From contig NZ_CP078069.1 in NCBI RefSeq assembly GCF_019195435.1, positions 434,001 to 498,000 on the forward strand: a stretch of DNA of 64,000 nucleotides. The letters are read 5' to 3'. Origin of the DNA: Comamonas sp. NLF-1-9 (GTDB taxonomy: Bacteria > Pseudomonadota > Gammaproteobacteria > Burkholderiales > Burkholderiaceae_C). The position numbers and the translations under genes were made by a program. Below are positions 24,246 through 26,253 of this stretch, one piece after another. Under the pieces are notes generated by a model. It was not told where the DNA came from, did no database searches, and saw only the letters and a program-made list of their open reading frames with translations. Positions within the stretch are counted from its first letter, which is position 1. Every line of letters begins with the position of its first letter.

Positions 24246-24305
24246 ATCTAACGGGCGAGGTAAGCCGGCCGCCGTAGGCGGATCGGCTTGACCGAAATGT
24301 TAGAC
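24246..24305 (-). other. attC recombination site (attC-3)
   Basis: Core ends ATCTAAC (24246-24252) and GTTAGAC (24299-24305), 60 bp. Inner arms GGTAAGCC and GGCTTGACC pair with a single unpaired G on the right-hand side, the strand-selecting extrahelical base, so cassettes are oriented right to left. Confidence 0.88.
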
Positions 24306-24490
24306 CCGACGCTTGGAAAGGCGCGGGTGCTACGACGATGATAGCTGCTAGCGCTTGCTACGCAAGGGTTAGGGGCCAAAATAGCTTGAAACTGGTGCAA
24401 GGTATGCAGGCGAAGCCTGGCGCAGCGCCAAAACCCCAGCGAATATACGCTTGAGAAAGACGAAACGCTGGAATGAATAGCGGCCTGCAT
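24248..24490 (-). CDS. Possible small protein of cassette 3 (homologue of the cassette 2 frame)
   Basis: 80 codons. The middle part (FSSVYSLGFWRC, FQAILAP, ASASSY) is similar to the frame in the adjacent cassette (FSSVYPLGVLPR, FQAFLAS, ACASSY). Much of the similarity comes from the dispersed repeat carried by both cassettes, and no Shine-Dalgarno is visible. May be non-coding. Confidence 0.3.
   Translation of the reverse strand: MQAAIHSSVSSFSSVYSLGFWRCARLRLHTLHQFQAILAPNPCVASASSYHRRSTRAFPSVGSNISVKPIRLRRPAYLAR
24340..24400 (-). repeat. Dispersed repeat, long copy in cassette 3
   Basis: GATAGCTGCTAGCGCTTGCT, then a GGCCAAAATAGCTTGAAAC segment; read on the minus strand it starts with TTTCAAGC and ends with the AGCAGCTATC core. 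Confidence 0.8.
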
Positions 24491-24507
24491 AAAGCGGAAT
24501 ATGAAGG

Positions 24508-24565
24508 GCCTAACGGCTGAGTTCAGCCGACGCCGTAGGCGGTCGGCTGCGACGAAATGTTAGAC
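24508..24565 (-). other. attC recombination site (attC-2)
   Basis: Core ends GCCTAAC (24508-24514) and GTTAGAC (24559-24565), 58 bp. Central hairpin CAGCCGACGCC / GGCGGTCGGCTG around GTA. Shares CGCCGTAGGCGG and AAATGTTAGACCC with attC-3, as expected for attC sites of one chromosomal integron. Confidence 0.88.
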
Positions 24566-24799
24566 CCGAACGCCAAGAAAGGGAAACCCCAACTTGACGA
24601 CGGGCACGAACTGCGAAAAAGCGCTGCGCCACGGAGGCGGCGCAATGCTTGCAAAAAGATAGCTGCTAGCGCACGCTGCGCAAGCGCTGGAGGCCAAAAA
24701 GGCTTGAAACAGGCGCAGCACCCCAAGGCGAAGCCCGGCACGCGGCAAAACACCCAGCGGATAAACGCTTGAGAAAATAAATGCCGGTGAATAAAGCAT
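24560..24799 (-). CDS. Possible small protein of cassette 2
   Basis: 79 codons with several hydrophobic residues (SPAFIFSSVYPLGVLPR, LRLFQAFLASSACAACASSY, SQFVPVVKLGFPFLG). Similar to the frame in cassette 3; the similar part overlaps the dispersed repeat. No Shine-Dalgarno. Coding status doubtful. Confidence 0.3.
   Translation of the reverse strand: MLYSPAFIFSSVYPLGVLPRAGLRLGVLRLFQAFLASSACAACASSYLFASIAPPPWRSAFSQFVPVVKLGFPFLGVRV
24655..24710 (-). repeat. Dispersed repeat, long copy in cassette 2
   Basis: GATAGCTGCTAGCGCACGCT, GCGCAAGCGCTGG and GGCCAAAAAGGCTTGAAAC; homologous to the copy at 24340-24400. Confidence 0.8.
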
Positions 24800-24826: not shown

Positions 24827-24883
24827 GACTAACGCAAAGGTAAGCGGCGGCGGTACGCCGTCCGCTTGACCGCCGTGTTAGAC
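24827..24883 (-). other. attC recombination site (attC-1)
   Basis: Core ends GACTAAC (24827-24833) and GTTAGAC (24877-24883), 57 bp. Inner arms GGTAAGCGG and CCGCTTGACC pair with one extrahelical G on the right, giving the same orientation as attC-3. The left core has T where a purine is usual. Confidence 0.85.
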
Positions 24884-24976
24884 GGCGGCACCGTGCAGTA
24901 TGACTGCGCCAGCCCGCTGCGTGCTATGTAGTGTGCGACGCACACGCGACTTGCCAACGACGCAGACGCAAAAGAC

Positions 24977-25065
24977 TGGTGGGGCAACGGCAGGAATCTC
25001 ACCTGCATATCTTCGTGGTATGAGCACGACGAGGATTGCATATACACCTCTCAGCCCGTTGCCCC
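24977..25065 (-). tRNA. tRNA-like element with CAU anticodon loop, first integron cassette
   Basis: 89 bases on the minus strand that fold as a cloverleaf. The end arms GGGGCAACG (25065-25057) and CGTTGCCCC pair over 9 bp and are followed by ACCA, giving discriminator A and an encoded CCA. The anticodon arm is TCGTG / CACGA with the 7-base loop CTCATAC (U33, anticodon CAU, A37). The T arm is GCAGG / CCTGC with loop TGAGATT. The D arm is GAGG / CCTC with a 12-base loop. Unusual points are the 9-bp acceptor, the six-base link before the D arm, no GG in the D loop, and no TTCR in the T loop. It could be a diverged functional tRNA (Met- or Ile2-type anticodon), a decoy or a pseudogene. It is not an ordinary chromosomal tRNA. 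It reads away from attI. Confidence 0.45.
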
Positions 25066-25101
25066 GTAAACTGATTTACGGCGATGCGATGACGCATCGC
25101 C
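25065..25101. repeat. Two adjacent perfect hairpins upstream of the tRNA-like element
   Basis: CGTAAA (25065-25070) / TTTACG (25075-25080) around CTGA, and GGCGATGCG (25080-25088) / CGCATCGCC (25093-25101) around ATGA. They fill the space between attI and the 5' end of the tRNA-like element. Confidence 0.75.
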
Positions 25102-25104
25102 GCC

Positions 25105-25160
25105 CTCTAACTGGAATTAGACGACGCTCTTGGAGCGCCTCCTTGAACAATAACATGCCG
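25105..25160 (-). other. Probable attI site
   Basis: On the minus strand GTTAGAG (25105-25111) is the only GTTRRRY-type core between attC-1 and intI, at the position expected for attI next to the integrase gene. It marks the 5' edge of the first cassette (about 25110). A strong Shine-Dalgarno, AAGGAGG, lies just upstream on the minus strand (25137-25143). Confidence 0.65.
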
Positions 25161-25192
25161 CAACATCCGCCCACCCTCTCGTAAACCCGGAC

Positions 25193-25220
25193 TTGTCTTT
25201 CATTTAGGCAAACCTAAAAT
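25193..25220 (+). promoter_or_regulatory. Promoter and operator-like palindrome of intI
   Basis: TTGTCT (25193-25198), 16-base spacer, TAAAAT (25215-25220). TTTAGG (25203-25208) and CCTAAA (25213-25218) form a palindrome overlapping the -10, a possible repressor site. No LexA-type CTGT-N8-ACAG box is visible. The predicted start site falls at the intI ATG (25228), implying a leaderless message. Confidence 0.5.
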
Positions 25221-25227
25221 TTTGCGG

Positions 25228-26253
25228 ATGGATGTCTCAAGCTCCCTTCCGCCAGATGGCGCTGCGGCCCCACCCAGGCCACCCAAGCTGCTGGAGCGCA
25301 TGCGCACCCACCTGCGCACGCGCCATTACAGCTACCGCACCGAGCAGGCCTATCTGGATTGGGTGCGACGTTTTATTCTGTATCACAACAAGCGCCATCC
25401 GCAAGAGATGAGCGCACGAGAAGTGGAGGCATTCCTGAGTCATCTGGCGGTGGATAGGCAGGTGTCGGCCTCTACCCAAAACCAGGCGAAGGCGGCGATC
25501 CTGTACCTCTACCGGCAGGTGTTGGGCGTTGAGCTGGCTTGGCTCGATGAAGTGGTGCAGGCCAAGCGCCCGCGCCGGCTGCCGGTGGTGCTCACACCCG
25601 CCGAGGTGCGGTTGCTCTTGACGCACATGGATGGCACGACGGGGCTGATTGCGCAACTGCTTTACGGCACGGGCATGCGGCTGATGGAGGCGCTGCGCCT
25701 GCGCGTGAAGGATGTGGAGTTCGCGCGGCGCGAGATCGTGATCCGCGAGGGCAAGGGTGACAAGGACAGGGTGACGGTGCTGCCCGAGAACCTGATGCAG
25801 CCTTTGCGCGCGCAGTTGCACAAGGCGCGGGCGTTGCACGAGAAAGATCTGGAGGCGGGGCTGGGGCGGGTGAATTTGCCGCACGCGCTGGCGGTGAAGT
25901 ATCCGAACGCAGACCAGGCCTGGGCGTGGCAGTGGGTGTTCCCCTCACCGGTGCGCGGGGTGGACCCGCGCCCGGATGCGCGCACGGGCGAGCATCTGGA
26001 GCGGCGCCACCACGTCTACCCCGAATCGGTGCAGCGGGCGGTGCGCGAGGCGGCAAAGCGAGCCCAGATGGTCAAGCCGGTTTCGCCGCATGTGCTGCGC
26101 CATTCGTTTGCTACGCATTTGCTGCAATCGGGCTACGACATTCGCACGGTGCAAGAGCTGCTGGGCCACGCGGATGTGAGTACGACGGCGATCTACACGC
26201 ATGTGCTCAACAAGGGCGGGCGGGGCGTGTTGAGCCCTCTCGATGCCTTGTAA
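25228..26253 (+). CDS. intI: Integron integrase IntI (tyrosine recombinase)
   Basis: Recombines attI with attC single-stranded hairpins to insert and excise cassettes. 341 residues. The N-terminal SAM-like domain starts near [20 protein letters not shown]. The catalytic domain has the Arg box ([17 protein letters not shown]), [20 protein letters not shown] and [15 protein letters not shown] with the nucleophilic Tyr. The IntI-specific patch is present between them: [20 protein letters not shown], which distinguishes it from XerC/D. ATG at 25228 chosen; a TTG two codons earlier is open. No Shine-Dalgarno is visible. Confidence 0.95.

Follow-up and report, generated by a model that had tools for sequence, protein, structure and literature searches.

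Genetic Setting of the tRNA-Like Element

The window, that is, the whole 64-kb stretch of DNA that was analysed, carries an integron, the features of which are compiled in Table 1. The attI end GTCGTCTAATTCCAGTTAG recurs with minor variation in the closest of 30 related IntI-upstream stretches; the insertion point is therefore placed at 25111/25110, and cassette 1 extends from 25110 to 24833. A tRNA-like element resides in this cassette between attI and attC and adjoins the IntI gene, in full agreement with the first-pass annotation, which had placed it in the first integron cassette. Neither of the two longer open reading frames of cassette 1 (24829-25047 on the minus strand and 24900-25184 on the plus strand) belongs to a Pfam family. 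The former, regarded as a spurious frame, gave eight matches with E-values of 0.07 to 0.5 among 5.8 billion proteins, and the likeness was judged by eye to be confined to the attC-encoded tail. An assignment of the element itself as an attC-like recombination structure was likewise discarded, since inspection by eye revealed no GTTRRRY/RYYYAAC boxes at its ends.

The neighbouring cassettes between 23022 and 24227 on the minus strand apparently encode two toxin-antitoxin pairs; one consists of a HicA toxin and a frame whose matches, both below the cut-off, are to DUF7387 and, weakly, to HicB-like antitoxins, the other of a Gp49-like protein and an HI1420-type antidote. Two DUF1010 cassettes (24248-24799, minus strand) are 80-82% alike over two blocks, and it is doubtful that their frames represent real proteins. 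The host possesses a second integron integrase (C1:891245-892210) that is 56% identical to the first.

Table 1. Positions of the integron features and of the parts of the tRNA-like element in the window, and occurrence of the related phage RNA.
Feature	Position	Strand	Basis and remarks
Integron integrase IntI	25228..26250	+	PF00589, PF13495; homologues in the family up to 85% identical
attI region, outer limit approximate	25111..25222	-	Sequence common to related IntI loci up to GTTAG
Cassette 1, 278 bp, no recognisable protein gene	24833..25110	-	attI and attC boundaries
attC of cassette 1, GTCTAAC ... GTTAG with an imperfect hairpin between	24829..24883	-	Sequence
Perfect 10-bp hairpin CGGCGATGCG TCAT CGCATCGCCG, upstream of the element in cassette 1	25079..25102	-	Sequence
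Short hairpin GTAAA TCAG TTTAC, directly before the element	25066..25079	-	Shares base 25079 with the 10-bp hairpin
tRNA-like element, 89 nt, encoded CCA	24977..25065	-	Sequence, cloverleaf scan, R1 model
Acceptor-like stem, 5' strand GGGGCAACG	25057..25065	-	Pairs with 24981-24989; pairing probability 0.7-1.0
D-arm-like hairpin GAGG/CCTC, 12-base loop without GG	25031..25050	-	Cloverleaf scan
Anticodon-arm-like hairpin TCGTG CTCATAC CACGA (CAU)	25013..25029	-	Identical hairpin in the phage RNA family
T-arm-like hairpin GCAGG TGAGATT CCTGC	24990..25006	-	Resembles tRNA-Arg(CCT) apart from T-loop positions 55-56
Acceptor-like stem, 3' strand CGTTGCCCC	24981..24989	-	Discriminator A 24980, CCA 24979-24977
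gpG-upstream phage RNA family members	L117-L120, L123-L126, L156, L157, L160, L161, L163, L165, L166, L169, part of L170-L249 (viral contigs); L255-L258 (genomes)

Possible Cloverleaf Architecture

Read from 25065 to 24977 on the minus strand, the element exhibits exactly what had been described for it from the letters alone: four helices of 9, 4, 5 and 5 bp, in which all 23 pairs are of the Watson-Crick type, a CTCATAC loop, a purine discriminator and an encoded CCA. The peculiarities that had been pointed out at the same time are also all present in the sequence. The 9-bp acceptor (GGGGCAACG/CGTTGCCCC) is followed by the six-base link GGCTGA before the D stem; the D loop (TGTATATGCAAT, 12 bases) lacks GG, and a single base separates the D stem from the anticodon stem. 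The latter (TCGTG/CACGA) encloses the loop CTCATAC, six bases (AGATAT) lead from it to the T stem (GCAGG/CCTGC), which carries the loop TGAGATT, and the discriminator A and CCA complete the 3' end.

A cloverleaf descriptor that demanded perfect stems (with G-T pairs allowed), T33, CCA and an acceptor of 7-9 bp detected the element as its sole site on both strands of the window; when applied to one strand each of 60 Markov sequences of 64 kb, it returned one site, and none with a 9-bp acceptor, a rough figure as the descriptor had been drawn up with the element in view. Even with this reservation, the cloverleaf exceeds chance expectation. That every stem is perfect follows in part from how this particular cloverleaf was selected.

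Likeness to Genuine tRNAs

The element is recognized neither by ARAGORN nor by the Rfam tRNA model RF00005, and is no standard tRNA. A covariance model (R1; self score 122 bits) was built from the element alone. At an E-value of 0.01, R1 matches 25 of 299 family genomes, and it matches 315 of 369 class genomes with a best non-self score of 43 bits; both counts include the element's own genome, and the E-values, calculated per genome after a short calibration, are rough. Among the 38 non-self loci brought in by the family and class searches, 25 were checked with ARAGORN, and a tRNA was found at every one of them: tRNA-Met (of the fMet type) at 11 and tRNA-Arg(CCT) at three of the first 14 loci, and tRNA-Met at all of the further 11. 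It is to these 25 loci, examined one by one, that the tRNA identity of the R1 matches applies.

The element was also compared with 34 tRNAs of the host, a set derived from 30 of the 48 RF00005 matches in its genome. The best local match is tRNA-Arg(CCT) (ATGCAGGTGAGATTCCTGCCG versus ATGCAGGTTCGATTCCTGCCG), and only one of 2000 whole-element shuffles reached this score. The likeness extends over the T arm and its flank (ATGCAGGT..GATTCCTGCCG), where 19 of 21 bases are identical and both differences fall on T-loop positions 55-56 (TC replaced by GA); the acceptor, anticodon and D parts are unlike those of tRNA-Arg(CCT). When the parts of the element were assessed separately, the tRNA likeness of the T-arm/acceptor part was matched by none of 1000 shuffles. 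For the anticodon part, the closest host tRNA is fMet, a likeness that is weak when taken alone as 29 of 1000 shuffles equal it, and the 5' part with the D arm displays no tRNA likeness (976 of 1000 shuffles are equally good). By eye, every difference from host fMet in the D stem (GAGC/GCTC there, GAGG/CCTC in the element) and in the anticodon stem (TTGGG/CCCAA there, TCGTG/CACGA in the element) affects both bases of a pair. Loop base 38 is C in the element and in most members of the phage RNA family described below, and A in fMet. In terms of its sequence, the element looks like a set of tRNA modules arranged in the right order rather than a copy of one tRNA.

Departures from Canonical and Unorthodox tRNAs

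With initiator tRNA-fMet and elongator tRNA-Met, the element shares the CAU anticodon, the 5-bp arm with a 7-base loop, the context CTCGTyG.GCTCATA and the CCA end; it differs from both through its fully paired 9-bp acceptor, C38, the D loop without GG and the T loop without psi-C. Initiator tRNAs are defined by three consecutive G-C pairs in the anticodon stem and by a 1-72 mismatch. In the element, the stem reads UCGUG/CACGA, with a U-A pair in place of the middle G-C pair of the initiator stem, and position 1 is paired with position 72 (G1-C72).

In a normal tRNA, G18G19 contact psi55C56 to form the elbow (PMC7609411). Both partners of this contact are missing from the element, which possesses no D-loop GG and carries GA in place of psi55C56. 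Its stacked acceptor and T stem amount to 9+5 = 14 bp, whereas the acceptor branch of tRNA-Sec and of allo-tRNAs comprises 12 or 13 bp, and the 9+5 arrangement corresponds to none of the types named in that report (7/5, 8/5, 9/4, 8/4 and 9/3). A long acceptor is common to the element, to allo-tRNAs and to irregular allo-tRNA-like RNAs, the latter having been reported from soil, some of them with an additional loop ahead of the D stem (PMC7609411); the element nonetheless differs from allo-tRNAs with their 12-bp acceptor domain (8/4 or 9/3) by its 9+5 arrangement and its T loop. With sRNA-Xcc1 (RF02221), it has in common a length of about 88 nt, a location in an integron cassette and a 9-bp closing stem, and yet the RF02221 model does not match the element at E-values up to 10. 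Within the same limit, no Rfam family fits it; the sole weak match in the searched stretch was to a snoRNA model (E 3.1), located over attC on the opposite strand.

Folding and Strand

The minimum-energy fold of the minus-strand element is a rod with -37.0 kcal/mol, 3.1 kcal/mol better than the cloverleaf (-33.9 kcal/mol) in a calculation in which neither modifications nor partners are modelled; in the same ensemble, the cloverleaf helices of the D, anticodon and T arms attain pairing probabilities of only 3-5%. Compared with shuffled sequences, the minus strand folds with a z-score of -2.96 (3 of 200 shuffles) and the plus strand, as good or slightly better, with -3.84 (0 of 200). The 228-nt cassette RNA from 25107 to 24880 has a z-score of -4.41, and none of 200 shuffles was as stable. 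No promoter of the kind tested was found on the minus strand between 24800 and 25500. The lost elbow, the 14-bp stack, the preferred rod, the low helix probabilities and the slightly better folding of the plus strand all weigh against the tRNA reading of the element and temper our confidence in it.

Distribution of the Element

Close relatives of the element were sought in several collections, which may omit the nearest records of the host. A DNA search of 60 genomes, the host's own included, returned the element only, and R1 with stricter filters found no homologue in 299 and 369 genomes. The pattern CGTCGNGCTCATACCNCGAA occurs in one of 369 genomes of the order, namely this one. Patterns of the element hit 0 and 26 stretches in a collection of genome contigs, none of which proved element-like on reading, and 0 and 1 stretch among viral contigs, the latter being unlike the element. 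A 17-mer of the T arm is present in 15 stretches of viral contigs, and on reading none of these proved to contain the remainder of the element. Plasmid and phage collections yielded short partial matches only, and the whole cassette 1 used as a query gave two matches, over its attC. On 30 IntI loci, neither a cloverleaf scan nor R1 detected anything beyond the element of the window, and R1 identified no similar element in 8 kb around the second integron integrase of the host. On 74 viral loci, the best R1 score was 24.7 bits, a result that is not independent as most of the best loci had been found through their hairpin.

A Phage RNA Family with the Same Anticodon Hairpin

The anticodon hairpin TCGTGCTCATACCACGA is found in 10 viral contigs, eight of which (two of them identical) share further flanking sequence. 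A relaxed hairpin pattern hit 24 viral contigs: these eight, seven new family members (three identical) and nine Met-type tRNAs as judged by eye; a third pattern hit 12 contigs, one of which (L169) was new. The RNA so delineated lies in antisense orientation upstream of gpG in Mu-like phages, a gene whose phage relatives are annotated as virion morphogenesis or tail completion proteins, and it features a Met-type anticodon-arm hairpin (P2) and a conserved third hairpin (P3). In the two remaining contigs, of 73 and 275 kb (L121:711-727 and L122:3872-3888), the 17-base hairpin is present without any change as part of an AT-rich RNA of three hairpins that is closed by a 10-bp stem; the surroundings of their hairpins are identical to each other and different from the gpG setting.

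An alignment of 20 sequences, from which two of 22 candidates were omitted (L119, for which the script found no closing stem, and L218, whose closing stem is doubtful), was used to assess P2 and P3, and the pairs of both hairpins withstood the comparison with shuffles. Paired cells account for 97.8%, versus 85.3% in shuffles (0 of 500), cells with changes on both sides number 20 versus 7.2 (0 of 500), and the covariation score is 0.438 versus 0.210 (0 of 500), values that related sequences can reach beyond such shuffles without structure. Weaker measures are the number of pairs with both-side changes (4 versus 2.9; 42 of 500) and of further pair types (12 versus 9.5; 13 of 500). No Rfam 15 family corresponds to this RNA at the gathering score or at E-values up to 5, and no description of it was found among the matches listed in the literature searched. 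Known Rfam RNAs, including ribozymes and RAGATH motifs in so far as Rfam contains them, were considered for the phage locus and rejected: in cmscan at E-values up to 5, the 16 phage loci examined gave sRNA-Xcc1 on two and three weak matches far below the cut-offs. Model R2, which represents the family, detects it in five of 274 class genomes, next to a gpG-like frame in four of them (the fifth being L259).

The gpG locus was also sampled through its protein. Of 418 relatives, the 80 best were kept; one of these lacked upstream DNA, and collapsing near-identical loci reduced the other 79 to 60. A CAU-type hairpin was matched upstream of gpG at 13 of the 60 loci versus 2 of 2602 control stretches, a count that is not free of bias as the query protein came from a phage picked for its hairpin, and one of the 13 (L191) is by eye a promoter-box match. 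T-arm-like hairpins occur at 4 of 60 loci versus 22 of 2602 controls. Boxes resembling a -10 element occur at 22 of 60 loci versus a shuffled mean of 3.8 and maximum of 11, the motif variants having been chosen after looking. In an earlier count, at least 34 of 62 gpG loci were without the third-hairpin core; the locus accordingly holds several RNA types or none. Just upstream of gpG, L228, L229, L233 and L248/L249 carry RNAs in which an acceptor-like stem bears a tRNA-like T arm (the RNA of L229 is called tRNA-Arg(gcg) by ARAGORN), and further structured RNAs unlike these are found there as well. The position upstream of gpG apparently serves as an interchangeable RNA slot.

In the window, R2 finds the element with 19.7 bits (E 0.0099), and only with model positions 22-38, the P2 hairpin UCGnG CUCAUAC CnCGA. 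Common to the element and the phage RNA are this hairpin (TCGnG CTCATAC CnCGA), with CG before it and A after it, and a long closing stem; the third hairpin (RCGYYnCGGRCGT) and the inner stem of the phage RNA are absent from the element, and its P3 core was not detected next to P2 even with filters off. Judged by sequence, the element shares a hairpin module with the phage RNA family and is not a member of it. The common hairpin could have been drawn twice from Met-type tRNAs.

A Proposed Non-Decoding tRNA Mimic and Its Alternatives

We favour, with a probability of roughly 0.4, a mobile tRNA mimic without a decoding function; our leading guess for its role is that of a decoy for enzymes whose substrates are Met-type tRNAs. 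A small RNA would be transcribed together with the cassette, either from the integron promoter or from an unseen one, and in the cell would fold into a tRNA-like shape in which an anticodon arm of the Met/fMet type is combined with a 3' end (T arm, acceptor and CCA) resembling that of a tRNA. An enzyme that recognizes either the anticodon arm or the 3' half might then bind it in place of, or alongside, a Met-type tRNA; candidate partners are an anticodon nuclease or a VapC-type toxin, for which the mimic could act as decoy or buffer. A role outside decoding is the most likely one because the elbow contacts between G18G19 and psi55C56 are missing, and a Met-type arm combined with a tRNA-like 3' half that lacks a working elbow would be read by enzymes addressing arm or end rather than by the ribosome. 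That tRNA-type arms do occur outside real tRNAs is indicated by the phage RNA family, in which the anticodon hairpin of the element recurs and its stem pairs covary. VapC toxins are reported to cleave tRNA where the anticodon stem meets the loop, initiator tRNA being the target of some, and extra tRNA-fMet genes partly restore growth (PMC8522696); phages are reported to counter tRNA-cutting defences with tRNAs of their own (PMC11555353). The host genome contains 12 PIN-domain matches, which make a nuclease for Met tRNA plausible in this bacterium, weak evidence given that PIN genes are also present in 10 of 14 control genomes. We know of no host PIN protein that acts on Met tRNA.

The energetics keep a non-tRNA reading alive, since the rod is favoured over the cloverleaf by about 3 kcal/mol. 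The element might accordingly belong to another type of structured non-coding cassette RNA, a regulatory small RNA in the manner of sRNA-Xcc1 or a stabilizing or terminating structure, which would fold as a rod, with the cloverleaf arising incidentally from tRNA-like modules. The stability of the 228-nt cassette RNA is in keeping with this explanation, as is the precedent of sRNA-Xcc1 itself, an 88-nt integron-cassette RNA with a 9-bp closing stem (PMC12444791, PMC2996969); we regard it as possible and yet doubtful, as the element fits no Rfam family at E-values up to 10 and the tRNA-like arms in register with a CCA end would be left unexplained. It is unlikely that we are dealing with a decaying, functionless chimera, made up of tRNA pieces and trapped in a cassette: decay should break stems, and all 23 cloverleaf pairs are intact, with the D and anticodon stems differing from fMet on both sides, even though the loss of the T-loop and D-loop consensus, the resemblance to two different tRNAs and the single copy found are what such a relic would display.

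The interpretation given in the first-pass annotation survives in part. The likeness of the element to tRNA holds in register, through an anticodon arm akin to that of initiator/Met tRNA and a T arm akin to that of tRNA-Arg(CCT); the alternative decoding or Ile2/Met-type function proposed along with it finds no support, and the decoy role likewise named there is possible. For a working, unorthodox CAU tRNA (Met or Ile2) speak CAU, T33, A73 and CCA, and tRNAs without the elbow motif have been described (tRNA-Pyl and type II mitochondrial tRNAs; PMC7609411). However, the tRNA models miss the element, D-loop GG and T-loop psi-C are lacking, its 9+5 stack lies outside the types named in the same source, and ARAGORN already assigns at least three tRNA-Met(cat) among the 34 host tRNAs, so that decoding appears quite improbable. 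An aminoacyl donor employed outside the ribosome is far less credible still; by analogy with cell-wall tRNAs, loss of the elbow might exclude EF-Tu and the ribosome, but no aminoacyl-transferase family is represented in the eight neighbouring frames examined. We give just as little credence to a chance resemblance unrelated to tRNA. While the descriptor was drawn up with the element in view and the rod fold is preferred, the Markov-sequence scan and the shuffle comparison with host tRNAs make a chance cloverleaf unlikely, and R1 finds matches in hundreds of genomes.

Possible Mobile RNA Cargo in Integrons and Mu-Like Phages

Integron cassettes are mostly regarded as carriers of protein genes, and tRNA-like RNA cargo would widen the range of what integrons move. 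A cassette with a small RNA is already known from Xanthomonas, where sRNA-Xcc1, first described in PMC2996969, occurs with symE (PMC12444791). A tRNA or tRNA-like gene as an integron cassette was not found among the matches listed in the literature searched, in which subscription journals are thinly covered. A tRNA mimic with a Met-type arm would permit a direct test of whether an RNA decoy protects cells or phages from tRNA-cutting toxins or defences.

On a more speculative note, and in our estimation rather improbable as a whole, integron cassettes and Mu-like phages might share a pool of small tRNA-mimic RNAs that act as mobile anti-nuclease decoys. The RNAs in the gpG slot, among them Met-type anticodon-arm RNAs and those whose T arm sits on an acceptor-like stem, would then be interchangeable, and the RNA of the cassette in the window would combine both modules with a CCA end. 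If true, such decoys would be novel both as integron cargo and as phage counter-defence. The gene neighbourhood of Mu-like phages is known to be RNA-rich, since ribozymes have been reported as enriched near their genes (PMC10085705). sRNA-Xcc1 (RF02221) is itself encoded on two contigs of Mu-like phages that carry the anticodon-arm RNA, at L117:4636-4723 (the same contig as L172) and at L208:3497-3585.
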